From Burkholderiales bacterium (GTDB lineage: Bacteria > Pseudomonadota > Gammaproteobacteria > Burkholderiales > Casimicrobiaceae): a DNA stretch of 32,684 bases. Below, one piece after another: positions 13,428 through 18,809 of the stretch (position 1 is the stretch's first letter; every line of letters begins with the position of its first letter). Both the position numbers and the translations under genes were made by a program. The stretch covers positions 1 through 32,684 of the forward strand of contig JAICLP010000005.1 in NCBI GenBank assembly GCA_025925475.1. The letters are read 5' to 3'. The notes under the pieces are model-generated. The model did not search any database. It saw only the letters and a program-made list of their open reading frames with translations, and was not told where the DNA came from.

Positions 13428-14342
13428 TCAGTGCTCGGCATTTCCGCGTAGCGCCGCAAAACCGAACGCGGCCACGCCAAGCACAAGCATCGCCATAGCG
13501 ACCGCGGTCAAAGTCGGTGTCGCTATGGCGCCGGGTTGGACCGGCGAGGGAAGAGGATCGTTGCTGACCGCGACTGCGTAGTCGGCGATGCCGCACAGAT
13601 TCGTGCCGCGGGCCATGTAGATATACCCCTGCACACCCCACGACGTCCCCCGTGAGTTCTTGACGATCCAATAGCCGCCACCGCCAGTGGTATAGCCCAC
13701 GATCAGCACCGCCTGCGTTGGGTCGTTGGCGGTGCAAGGCCCGGTGAAGACTCCGCCTTTGTAGTCATCGAACGCCGCACTCGCGTTGACGAGTGCCAGC
13801 ACCGGACCTCGAGCGACGTAATTCTGGAGCGATATCTCGTCGCCGGGCGGCACCCGTCCCGCACCCGGTATCGTCGTCACCGGCGTGATTGCCCTGCAGA
13901 CTCCTTGACGAGCGGTATAGGGATAGGACGACGTTTTTGCCAGTCCACCCTTGGCGATGACCGTTCTCAATGCCGCGATCGGACTCCCGCCACTGCACCC
14001 CGATTGCGACCCCGTGCAATCGAGCAGTTCCTGCTCGGAGAGAGCGAACAGCTGGCCCGTCCGAATGACGTGACTGGCTTCTACCAGCCCTGTCACCGCG
14101 AAGGCCCAGCTCGCGTCGCACGACCCTTCGTTCTTGACCGGCGTCACCGCTCCTTTCGACCGCCAGTCCACGTCCCCGACGTTGCCTGTAAGTGCGGGCA
14201 GCACGGTGAGCCTGTCGTAGTCTGTTGTGAAGACCGTGGCGCGAGCAGCGCCGACTGCAGCTCCGGCAAGCAGTACGGCGGCGATGACGAGGCGAAGGAT
14301 CACGCAGCAACGCGGGCAGGTAGACCGGTCATGCCGCGGCAT
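13428..14342 (-). CDS. Papain-fold (C1) protein, predicted catalytically inactive, secreted, with C-terminal TM
   Basis: Signal peptide (VILRLVIAAVLLAGAAVGAARA), VDWRSKGAVTPVKNEGSCDASWAFAVTGLVEASH...LSEQELLDCTGSQSGCSGGSP...DPTQAVLIVGYTTGGGGYWIVKNSRGTSWGVQGYIYMARG, C-terminal hydrophobic segment LTAVAMAMLVLGVAAFGFAALRG. Confidence 0.85.
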   Translation of the reverse strand: MPRHDRSTCPRCCVILRLVIAAVLLAGAAVGAARATVFTTDYDRLTVLPALTGNVGDVDWRSKGAVTPVKNEGSCDASWAFAVTGLVEASHVIRTGQLFALSEQELLDCTGSQSGCSGGSPIAALRTVIAKGGLAKTSSYPYTARQGVCRAITPVTTIPGAGRVPPGDEISLQNYVARGPVLALVNASAAFDDYKGGVFTGPCTANDPTQAVLIVGYTTGGGGYWIVKNSRGTSWGVQGYIYMARGTNLCGIADYAVAVSNDPLPSPVQPGAIATPTLTAVAMAMLVLGVAAFGFAALRGNAEH

Positions 14343-14437
14343 ATTATCGCGAAACGTCCAGCAACCGGCGTTGCTCGCTTCCTGTTGGGAAGACCGTCGG
14401 GCGGCCCCGTTCCAACAGACAACATACTTTTCAATCA

Positions 14438-15124
14438 ATGACGGCCAAATCCCCCCAACGCCTACGGCCGAAGCTGATTTCGTTCGACGTGTTCGGCACG
14501 CTGATCAGCGTTCGCGAAAGCTCCTATGGTGCCTTCGAGCGCATTCTGTGCGACGCCGGCGGAGAACGCGTCGACGTGAAGGCGTTCTGGGAGTATTGGG
14601 AGCAGCGGAACATCGCTCATTATTGGGAGCCGTATCGGACTTATCGCGAGATTTGCGAGCTCTCGCTGGAGGAATCCTTCGCACACTTCGGCGTCGCTGG
14701 CGATTGCCGCCTCATCGACCGCTATTTCGACAGCTTTCCGCGCTTCTTTCTCTACGACGACGTCGTGCGCACGCTGGATCGACTGTCGCGCCGCTACCGG
14801 CTGGCCGTCGTGTCCAATATCGATGATGATCTTCTGGCGCTGACGCCGCTCACGCGTGAATTCGATCTCGTGTGCACGGCGCAACGCGCGCGCGGCTACA
14901 AGCCCGACGGCACACTGTTCCGACACCTGATCGATCGTGCGGGCTGCTCCAGGGACGACATCCTGCATGCAGGACAGTCGCAATTCACCGATCTGGTCGG
15001 TGGCAAGCCACTTGGGTTGACCATCGCCTGGATCAACCGGCGCCAGATCGCGCTGGACGGCGCAGTTCCGCGCCCGGACTACGTTTTTCCCGACATTCAA
15101 TCTTTCAGCGAATTCGTACAGTGA
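14438..15124 (+). CDS. HAD family hydrolase (haloacid dehalogenase-like)
   Basis: LISFDVFGTLISVRESSYGAFERIL...YRLAVVSNIDDDLLALT...QRARGYKPDGTLFRHLIDRAGCSRDDILHAGQSQFTDLVGGKPLGLTIAWINR: HAD motifs I-IV. Confidence 0.9.
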   Translation: MTAKSPQRLRPKLISFDVFGTLISVRESSYGAFERILCDAGGERVDVKAFWEYWEQRNIAHYWEPYRTYREICELSLEESFAHFGVAGDCRLIDRYFDSFPRFFLYDDVVRTLDRLSRRYRLAVVSNIDDDLLALTPLTREFDLVCTAQRARGYKPDGTLFRHLIDRAGCSRDDILHAGQSQFTDLVGGKPLGLTIAWINRRQIALDGAVPRPDYVFPDIQSFSEFVQ

Positions 15125-15288: not shown

Positions 15289-16530
15289 TTATGCGCTTCC
15301 TGCGCGATGCTGCGAATAGAAGAATCGGACCATTTCCGCTGATGCGTCGGGTCCGGTTGGGTCGGTGAACGAGCCGCCGGGGCTTCCTCCGGACCATGCG
15401 TGGCCCGCGCCATGCAGTATCCAGTGCTCGATGACCGGCCGACGCGTGCCGTCGGAGAGCATGGCACGCGTATAGGCGCGACCATTCGGGCTCGTACCTC
15501 GATAAACGGTGGACGTCAGGGCTGAGTCATCCGAATTGGCAGCGCGTGCCTGTTCGACGATGGCATCCGCATTCGACGCGTTTACGGTCACATCGTGATC
15601 GCCGTGGAAGATGATCGTTGGAATGGCAGGTCCGGGTTCGGAACGTGGGGCGAAGTCTGCACGACGCGACAAGGACGTTTGACCTGGCGCGCCACCTTTC
15701 ATCGCTGCGAAGGCCGAAGGCACGTCGTGGGCGCACGCGTAAGGCAGACCCGAATGCACGCCAAGGGCGGCATAAAGCTCCGGATACGTCGCTGCAAGCA
15801 CGACCGCCATGGCTGCGCCTGCGGACAAACCTGCAACGAAGATCCGCCGTTGATCGATGCGATAGGCGCCCGCGACTTCACGCGTGATGCCTGCTATGAG
15901 CGCAGGCTCGCCGCGATCGCGGGACTGATCCTCCGTGCGGAACCAATTCCAGCACTTCGATCCGTTCGCATGAGCTTCCTGCGCAGGATAGGCCACGACG
16001 AAGCCGTGTTGGTCGGCAAGCGCGTTCATGCGCGTGCCGGCCGCGAAATCTTCCGGATCCTGAGTGCAGCCGTGGAGCATTACGATCAGCGGCACGGGCT
16101 CCTCGGACGTGCGGCCATAGCTCGCCGGCACGTAGAGCTTATAGGTGCGCGCACCCACCTCGGAGCTGAACGAGCGCGTGACGAATTCGCCAGGACGTGC
16201 CGGTTCGTCGGGGGCCGGGAGACCGCTCGGTGTGTCATCGGGCGTGCGCGATTCCGGCGCGGTGATGTCGACAGCAGCGCCGTCGAGGGTGACAGGACGC
16301 GCAAAGTCCGCGGGCGCTTGCACGCCCACGCCGGCATTTGCGAGCGCCCGCTCGATTGTCTGCGTCACAAAACTTGCCACGCCGGAGCGCGTGTTGAGAC
16401 CCGAGGATGCAAGTGCCGCCGCGATCGTGTGCGTAATTCCTCGCACGTCGACGGGAAGCGTCGCCGGCAATGCGGCGATGGGACGGGCTTGCTCGAGGTA
16501 GCCATGGAACAGATCGTGGAATTTCTTCAA
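15289..16530 (-). CDS. PHB depolymerase-type esterase (alpha/beta hydrolase)
   Basis: YKLYVPASYGRTSEEPVPLIVMLHGCTQDPEDFAAGTRMNALADQHGFVVAYPAQ...RRIFVAGLSAGAAMAVVLAATYPELYAALGVHSG (GxSxG)...GAGHAWSGGSPGGSFTDPTGPDASAEMVRFF. Confidence 0.92.
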   Translation of the reverse strand: MKKFHDLFHGYLEQARPIAALPATLPVDVRGITHTIAAALASSGLNTRSGVASFVTQTIERALANAGVGVQAPADFARPVTLDGAAVDITAPESRTPDDTPSGLPAPDEPARPGEFVTRSFSSEVGARTYKLYVPASYGRTSEEPVPLIVMLHGCTQDPEDFAAGTRMNALADQHGFVVAYPAQEAHANGSKCWNWFRTEDQSRDRGEPALIAGITREVAGAYRIDQRRIFVAGLSAGAAMAVVLAATYPELYAALGVHSGLPYACAHDVPSAFAAMKGGAPGQTSLSRRADFAPRSEPGPAIPTIIFHGDHDVTVNASNADAIVEQARAANSDDSALTSTVYRGTSPNGRAYTRAMLSDGTRRPVIEHWILHGAGHAWSGGSPGGSFTDPTGPDASAEMVRFFYSQHRAGSA

Positions 16531-16561: not shown

Positions 16562-16996
16562 TCAATGGATCCGATCGGCCAGTGCGCTACGCACCGGCAG
16601 ACTGGCGTGAAAGGCGCCGAGCACCTCGACCGATTCGATCGTCGCGCGCGCGAGCTCGGGTGTTACGTCGTTTGCGATGCGGGCAAGACCGAGCACGTGA
16701 ATGTGAAGCTTCCGCCCCGCCGCGAGCGCCCGTTCGAGGTCCACCCGATCGATGTGCAGCAGGCCGAGCACGAGGTCGCGGCGGGCCACGGTGCGCTTGA
16801 CCGCATCGGCGTGCACGGAGAGTTGATTGCGAATGGCCGTCCGGATCAGGTCCGTGCGGTTTGAATAGAAACCCTCGCGGACGAGAAGGTCGATTTGGCC
16901 GAGGTCGACAACACCAAGGTTGATCGTGAGCTTCTCGCTTTCGCCGATCCGGACACGTGGGTCGGCGGTGTTATCAGCCATCTGCTTACCATCCAT
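16562..16996 (-). CDS. CopG-type (ribbon-helix-helix) transcriptional regulator
   Basis: MDGKQMADNTADPRVRIGESEKLTINLGVVDLGQIDLLVREGFYSNRTDLIRTAIRNQLSVH...: RHH pattern ('ItInLg..dL..iD.LV..G.ysnRtd.iR.AiR.ql'). SD GAGG precedes ATG 16996; alternative ATG 16981. 31-nt gap to the esterase start. Confidence 0.85.
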   Translation of the reverse strand: MDGKQMADNTADPRVRIGESEKLTINLGVVDLGQIDLLVREGFYSNRTDLIRTAIRNQLSVHADAVKRTVARRDLVLGLLHIDRVDLERALAAGRKLHIHVLGLARIANDVTPELARATIESVEVLGAFHASLPVRSALADRIH

Positions 16997-17017
16997 GGAC
17001 CATCCTCTTGGATGGTC
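16988..17017 (-). promoter_or_regulatory. Repeat cluster over the CopG SD/start codon (operator or RNA hairpin)
   Basis: Plus strand ACCATCC (16988-16994), ACCATCC (16999-17005), GGATGGT (17010-17016). Perfect 8-bp inverted repeat GACCATCC-TCTT-GGATGGTC (16998-17017). Confidence 0.55.
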
Positions 17018-17564
17018 ACTTTGCCACACGCAAACGCGTTTGGCAAGCACCGTGGATGACACTCGCTACCGCCGAGCGTCGAGCAGTCGATCTTCAACAG
17101 GGCATGAAAGAGCGGAGGAACAGCAGTGGCAGTTTTGCGCGTCGCCGCTCCTCGCAACCACTTCTGTGTCGCTACCGTCGTGCAATCTCGAGGATTAACC
17201 CTCGGGTCCGGTTCGCGTCTGGCCCAAATCCGATCGCGAAGGTATTTCTTCCGCTCCATCTTCGTTTTCCCACTCGTGAAGTGGGGCCTTGCGTTGTTTT
17301 TCTCCGGCGCCGTTGCGCCGCAGCCATGCGCCGAGGGGGGTGCCGCGCGCAGCGGATAGCGTCCAGCGGTGTTGAGTGACCATGGCTGCCTCGGTTCGGT
17401 AAACGGGCAGTCTGCCGGGCTTGCCATCTTCGGTCGGTGCGCTGGCGCGCATATCCGCGTTCGAGGAGATCAAGGCGTGGATGTCGCGAACACGCGCACT
17501 CAGCAGCCGCGTCGATTGCGCATCGGTTTACGGCGATGCGGGCGCGAAAGGCCAGACACACCCG

Positions 17565-18809
17565 TCAGTGCGGACTCGAACGCGCCGTTGACTTTTGGTG
17601 TGCAGTTGCCGGAAGTCGAGCCGGCGACAGCGATGCGTAGCTGCGCAGCTCCCGAGCGAACTTCTGCAATTCATCGATGCCGCTGGCCTCGGCCCGCTGG
17701 CACCAATCCTGAAGCTGCTCGACGAGCTGGTGTCGCGTGGCCACCGACCGGCCCCATACCGCCGCCAGCTGGGAGCGCATCGTATACATCGTCTGCAACG
17801 CGCGCACCTTCTGCAGGGTCGCGGCGATTTTCATGCGCTCGGTTTCGCGAAGAACCTTCTCGTCGCGATAGAGCCACGGCTTCAAGGTCAGCAGCGCACG
17901 CGCGTCATGCGGCGCAAACCGACGCAGCTTGCCGAGCTCCCTTGCATAAGCGCGCTTCAGCGACCTGCCGTACTTGGCGAGCACGTCGTAGCGGAAGTCG
18001 ATGATGATTTGCAGCGTATCGAGGTCGATTGCCGGCTTCGGTGCGGTGAAATGCGGAGTCGCCACGACGTGCTTGACGCGGGCGAGTCCGCACGTTTCCA
18101 GAGCGCGGATGTACAGCCAACCGCTGTCGATCTCGTACCACTTGTTCGACAGCTTGGCCGATGTCGGGTAGGCATGGTGGTTGTTGTGCAGCTCCTCCCC
18201 GCCGATGAGCAGGCCGATGGGCACGATGTTGGTGCTCACGTCAGGCGTGGACCAGTTGCGGTATCCCCAGTAATGACCAACGCCATTGATCACACCGGCC
18301 GCCCAAAACGGTATCCACACCATCTGGAGTGCGAAGATCAGCGCGCCGGGGACCATACCGAAGAGAATGAGTTCGACGACGCCCATGAGCGTCAACCCGA
18401 GAAGCGGGAGGCGGGAAAAAACGTTGCGATCGAGCCAGTCGTCTGGCGTCCCAGCGCCGTAACGCTCGACGGTTTCGCGCCGGTTCGCCTCCTTGACGTA
18501 CAGAAACACGCCGCGCCGCAAGACACGGTTGCTGCCGAAAACGCGTGGACTATGCGGATCTTCCGCGGTTTCGCATTTCGCGTGATGCTTCCGGTGAACG
18601 GCGACCCATTCGTTGGTCACCATGCCGGTCGTCATCCACAGCCACAGCCGGAAAAAATGGCTGGCGGCCGGATGCAGCTCGAGAGCGCGATGTGCCTGGT
18701 GCCGGTGCAAATACACCGTGACCGCGGCGATCGTGATGTGAGTGAGGCCAAGCGCCGCGATGGCGTTACCCCACCAGGGAAGCCCGAATACGCCGGAAAA
18801 AATCACCAA
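17565..18809 (-). CDS. Acyl-CoA/fatty acid desaturase (DesA type)
   Basis: Three His boxes: HRHQAHR, HRKHHAKCE, HNNHHAYP; membrane-spanning segments between. Confidence 0.93.
   Translation of the reverse strand: MVIFSGVFGLPWWGNAIAALGLTHITIAAVTVYLHRHQAHRALELHPAASHFFRLWLWMTTGMVTNEWVAVHRKHHAKCETAEDPHSPRVFGSNRVLRRGVFLYVKEANRRETVERYGAGTPDDWLDRNVFSRLPLLGLTLMGVVELILFGMVPGALIFALQMVWIPFWAAGVINGVGHYWGYRNWSTPDVSTNIVPIGLLIGGEELHNNHHAYPTSAKLSNKWYEIDSGWLYIRALETCGLARVKHVVATPHFTAPKPAIDLDTLQIIIDFRYDVLAKYGRSLKRAYARELGKLRRFAPHDARALLTLKPWLYRDEKVLRETERMKIAATLQKVRALQTMYTMRSQLAAVWGRSVATRHQLVEQLQDWCQRAEASGIDELQKFARELRSYASLSPARLPATAHQKSTARSSPH

Follow-up and report, generated by a model that had tools for sequence, protein, structure and literature searches.

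What do the short repeats that run into the start of a CopG-type gene in a Burkholderiales bacterium do, and do they act as RNA or as DNA? They lie on the minus strand of the window, which is the whole 32,684-nucleotide stretch of DNA that was analysed. The original prediction offered two readings: a bistable RNA hairpin over the Shine-Dalgarno sequence and the start codon, or an operator for the encoded ribbon-helix-helix (RHH) protein. As argued below, the element is very probably an autoregulatory DNA operator, to which the RHH_8 (PF17723) protein encoded next to it would bind.

The repeat array and the genes behind it

The minus-strand sequence GTGACCATCCAAGAGGATGGTCCATGGATGGTAAGCAGATGGC is present in the window as earlier described. 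In it, GACCATCC (17017-17010) and GGATGGTC (17005-16998) form a perfect 8-bp inverted repeat with an AAGA centre. The arrangement of the 7-mer, with two direct copies 11 bp apart and one inverted copy, had been given exactly, and I add a fourth, degenerate copy in the same register. The array and the two genes that follow it are listed here.

17010..17016, minus strand: half-site 1, ACCATCC, in inverted orientation; match of 6/7 or better here in 95% of 105 unique loci
16999..17005, minus strand: half-site 2, GGATGGT, 4 bp past half-site 1 (11-bp step); 94% of loci
16988..16994, minus strand: half-site 3, GGATGGT, next 11-bp step; at least 6/7 at this offset in 41% of loci
16977..16983, minus strand: half-site 4, AGATGGC, degenerate, next 11-bp step; at least 6/7 in 20% of loci
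16562..16996, minus strand: RHH_8 (PF17723) ribbon-helix-helix regulator gene; PF17723 E 4.4e-48
15289..16530, minus strand: PHA/PHB depolymerase-family esterase gene, TTG start as listed; PF10503, NF050058

The 7-mer occurs six times in the window, where 3.2 copies are expected by chance, and three of the six belong to this array. The exact spaced triple was found once on either strand, the rough uniform expectation being 2 x 32684 / 4^14 = 2e-4. In the whole 3.37-Mb assembly (about 84% complete), this is the only perfect copy of ACCATCC-N4-GGATGGT and also of GGATGGT-N4-GGATGGT. Two sites with two mismatches (L151 and L152) exist in the same genome. A direct repeat with one mismatch (L150) lies inside an ORF and was taken as chance, as was a one-mismatch match in Limnobacter (L095) from the regulon search, which is inside a large carboxylase-like ORF.

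The RHH_8 protein of 144 amino acids is encoded by the downstream reading frame and matches positions 2-119 of the 119-position PF17723 model with 162.7 bits, above the cut-off of 25.4. Its AlphaFold monomer model is poor (pLDDT 72, pTM 0.46), and no credible fold match to this model was found in the PDB. The sole PDB sequence match (E 0.027, annotated as an adenylate kinase) is marginal and was disregarded. The esterase gene begins 31 bp downstream. Its predicted product matches Esterase_PHB (PF10503) and the model for the short-chain-length PHA depolymerase catalytic domain type 1 (NF050058; 338.9 bits against 150), and its nearest solved relative is 8daj, a PHB-depolymerase-family esterase. 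A type II toxin-antitoxin operon would pair an RHH antitoxin with a small toxin gene, whereas the neighbour here is a PHA-depolymerase-family esterase of 413 amino acids.

In a fatty-acid desaturase ORF elsewhere in the window (17565-18809, minus strand), the C-terminal part scores over the Pfam cut-off for DDE_Tnp_ISL3 as well; either the ORF is a fusion or the model match is spurious. Another minus-strand ORF (13428-14438) has papain-family cysteine-protease-like motifs, as seen by eye.

Conservation of the array, the presumed promoter and the start codon

Is this layout common? Orthologs were taken from related genomes, GTDB contigs and an independent Pfam-model search of 399 genomes, an even sample of the phylum from which a second locus set was drawn. 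The total is 115 orthologous loci, 105 of them unique; the loci share ancestry and are not phylogenetically independent. The esterase gene lies downstream of the RHH_8 gene in 114 of the 115, and the contig of the remaining one ends too soon. In the first set it was present in 89/90 loci, the exception having a right flank of just 30 bases; in the second set every scored locus has it. The observation that a CopG-type gene leads a PHB-depolymerase-like gene is borne out here and is general across the ortholog loci.

Within 250 bp upstream, ACCATCC-N4-GGATGGT is exact in 38/115 loci and has at most 2 mismatches of 14 in 98/115. The original prediction had named absence of the repeats from orthologs as grounds for giving it up; with at most 3 mismatches they are present in 106/115. 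When the spacer was varied (at most 2 mismatches, 89 loci), a spacer of 4 was found in 78/89 and other spacers in 0-4, except for a spacer of 15 with 43, because the next half-site sits one 11-bp step on. Extra GGATGG half-sites recur at +22, +33 and +44, inverted half-sites recur at -11, and there is almost nothing off register. At the offset of half-site 3 the mean match is 4.8/7 against about 2 off register, and the 20% of loci scoring at the offset of half-site 4 compare with at most 2% at neighbouring offsets. The even phylum sample reproduces the motif independently, and the operator was found in about a hundred bacteria of several classes.

In Halomonas heilongjiangensis (L039), at least seven tandem direct GGATGGT half-sites in 11-bp steps occupy the region between about 180 and 92 nt ahead of RHH codon 20; judging from this sequence, operators appear to differ in length through tandem expansion. 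Hydrogenophaga loci have GGATTCC-type half-sites in a similar rhythm, and the diverged upstream region of L126 has TATACTCC-AATT-GGAGTATA, another palindrome in place of the usual operator with the same 4-bp gap. These variants suggest that the geometry outlives the sequence. One further locus (L142) has a broken RHH_8 remnant with an internal stop codon, followed by an esterase match, and no recognisable operator.

When the orthologs were aligned on half-site 1, a TTGACT-like -35 appeared at about -28 and a TAnTAT-like -10 abutting half-site 1, the latter hexamer lying 6 bp upstream and ending at -1. The promoter fit is better at the operator than at a decoy 120 bp upstream (penalty 4.2 vs 6.2). 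A strict promoter scan of the window found none, and the TTGCCA-17-CAAAGT match of this locus is weak:

17041..17046, minus strand: possible -35, TTGCCA; best-scoring pair, offset -30
17018..17023, minus strand: possible -10, CAAAGT (weak), offset -7; 17 bp from the -35, stopping just before the operator

Transcription would start about 7 nt past the -10, at the conserved A that follows half-site 1 directly. An imperfect palindrome, TTGCCA-AACGCGTTTGCGTG-TGGCAA (17021-17046, minus strand), lies immediately upstream of the operator and overlaps the presumed promoter; its conservation was not seen in the ortholog upstream sequences.

The start codon of the RHH_8 gene is also affected. Half-site 3 overlaps the ATG proposed earlier (16996-16994), while half-site 4 includes another ATG (16981-16979, codon 6), which is probably the conserved start. 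The ortholog alignment places the conserved start at codon 6 for this group, and several orthologs have no ATG equivalent to 16996, or have a stop codon just before the next one (L015, L018). The MDGK-like residues before codon 6 would then be there because the operator sequence dictates them. The original prediction was right that an ATG with a Shine-Dalgarno-like sequence exists at 16996: AGAGGA, produced by the unusual AAGA centre, lies a few bases ahead, and given this sequence the ATG may be used as a start, but it is probably not the conserved one. Starts of these RHH_8 genes may be mis-called, because the ATGGATGG half-sites resemble starts.

A probable DNA operator and the competing explanations

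In the proposed mechanism, RHH dimers would bind the 7-bp half-sites every 11 bp, or about one helical turn, on the same face of the DNA. The core would be the inverted pair ACCATCC-N4-GGATGGT, extended by more direct half-sites. The array covers the -10/transcription-start region, so that the bound protein, presumably RHH_8, would block RNA polymerase. The predicted effect is repression of its own gene and of the co-directional PHA-depolymerase esterase gene (negative autoregulation of the operon), and a signal linked to PHB metabolism may relieve the repression via the C-terminal domain. The effect on the promoter may instead be activation. An 11-bp register next to the promoter, as found in the 105 unique loci, is the layout of an autoregulatory RHH operator. 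The operator that had been put forward as the alternative reading is thus well supported by the sequence layout of the 115 loci, and the sole perfect site in the genome, at the regulator's own gene, makes a local autoregulatory operator most likely.

Could the operator serve another regulator, such as a PHB-linked or a global factor? The linkage of a regulator gene to a site does not by itself prove binding, but the site accompanies the RHH_8 gene through alpha-, beta-, gamma- and delta-class loci, and its half-sites in 11-bp steps suit RHH dimers. A global factor would have more sites, whereas there are no perfect copies elsewhere in this genome. Another ligand is therefore unlikely.

A still smaller chance is left to the bistable RNA hairpin, in which ACCAUCC pairs with either the first or the second GGAUGGU, hiding or exposing the Shine-Dalgarno sequence and AUG and so controlling translation. 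In this single sequence GAGG and AUG are suitably placed, and both alternative pairings give good predicted folds (z -2.7 to -3.4): the 46-nt fold chooses the long-range pairing (-14.7 kcal/mol, z -2.7) and the folds of 101-141 nt choose the local hairpin. However, any palindromic operator would fold likewise, and the orthologs do not support a conserved switch. The distance from the operator to RHH codon 20 ranges from 47 to 198 nt in all three frames, and in Halomonas-type loci as much as about 150 bp separates the element from the start codon downstream of it; the arms thus drift relative to both the Shine-Dalgarno sequence and the start codon. A cis-acting translational RNA switch would show compensated pairing near the start codon. 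Among the 735 cells examined (105 unique loci x seven pairs), 645 keep the consensus pair, 14 are wobble pairs, only 2 are compensated with both sides changed, and 74 are broken, so that the covariation check proposed with the hairpin speaks against it. The similarity-based choice of loci slightly biases this count against compensation, but only 9/115 loci were excluded; one of them, L126, is a compensated palindrome, and a symmetric protein site would show the same. The additional direct half-sites have no pairing partner. In addition, the conserved -10 adjoins the first arm, so that the transcript would begin in or after it and lack most or all of the arm. Taken together, the variable distance, the unfixed frame, the promoter-proximal place and the broken arms argue for a DNA operator and strongly against a conserved RNA switch over the Shine-Dalgarno sequence.

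Least credible of all, with a negligible chance, is that the ATGGATGG repeats are simply N-terminal codons (MDGK..) with an accidental inverted copy. The 7-mer by itself is common in the window, but the exact triple is unique there, and the ortholog comparison rules this reading out, as the array is also kept in non-coding, out-of-frame positions.

Known RHH operators and a probable link to PHB metabolism

Among the closest known systems is relO of the Escherichia coli relBE operon, where RelB RHH dimers bind cooperatively to adjacent sub-sites on one helix face at their own promoter (PMC2812701). relO is made up of two abutting half-sites of 12 bp, with four 6-bp hexads in all, and the spacing of the sub-sites is critical (PMC2812701). 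The RHH sites predicted here are likewise adjacent, on one helix face and over their own promoter. Unlike relO, they have 7-bp half-sites in 11-bp steps with a 4-bp gap, often extended as direct repeats, and the partner gene encodes an esterase, not a RelE-type toxin. Pseudomonas aeruginosa AmrZ binds amrZ1 as a dimer of dimers; the site is 18 bp long and has two inverted half-sites joined by an A/T-rich linker (PMC3325190). Two inverted half-sites are also the core of the present element, a candidate RHH site judged from its sequence, but those of AmrZ are GGC, 5 bp apart, as compared with ACCATCC-N4-GGATGGT, and AmrZ controls many genes whereas a single perfect site exists here.

Two dimers of P22 Arc, a phage RHH repressor without a C-terminal domain, occupy inverted sub-sites about 11 bp apart from centre to centre. 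The inverted half-sites here have a spacing of about 11 bp too, although the sequence differs and the extended direct-repeat array is found only here. NikR combines an RHH N-terminal domain with a C-terminal domain, binds nickel, and recognises an operator with widely spaced half-sites. RHH_8 similarly has an RHH domain and a C-terminal domain in one regulator, while the operators differ and no sequence relation was found. In the open-access literature, which was the scope of the search, nothing relevant was found on PF17723/RHH_8, on the core sequence of the operator or on control of a PHB depolymerase by a CopG-type protein. This is a well-defined operator of a known kind, apparently undescribed so far.

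In the even sample, 26 genomes have RHH_8 over the cut-off, and PHA synthase (PhaC_N) is present in 26/26 of them vs 232/399 overall (hypergeometric 4e-7, with shared ancestry left uncorrected). Two PhaC_N genes are present in the assembly that contains the window. The module is thus one of bacteria that can make PHB-type polymers. As a tentative extension, RHH_8 might serve PHB mobilisation across Proteobacteria as its dedicated sensor-repressor, with a single target. Its C-terminal domain would sense the granule, the depolymerase itself or a signal derived from PHB and release the 11-bp-stepped array, whose length varies; the response would be tuned by how many half-sites the array has.

The locus offers a testable regulator-operator pair for a widespread PHA-depolymerase operon. 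Control of PHB breakdown is relevant to the making of bioplastics, in Halomonas hosts for instance, and the helically phased half-sites, which vary in number, form a natural series for studies of cooperative RHH binding. PF17723 was also found over the cut-off in Methanocaldococcus jannaschii, a control genome, and the family thus extends to archaea.
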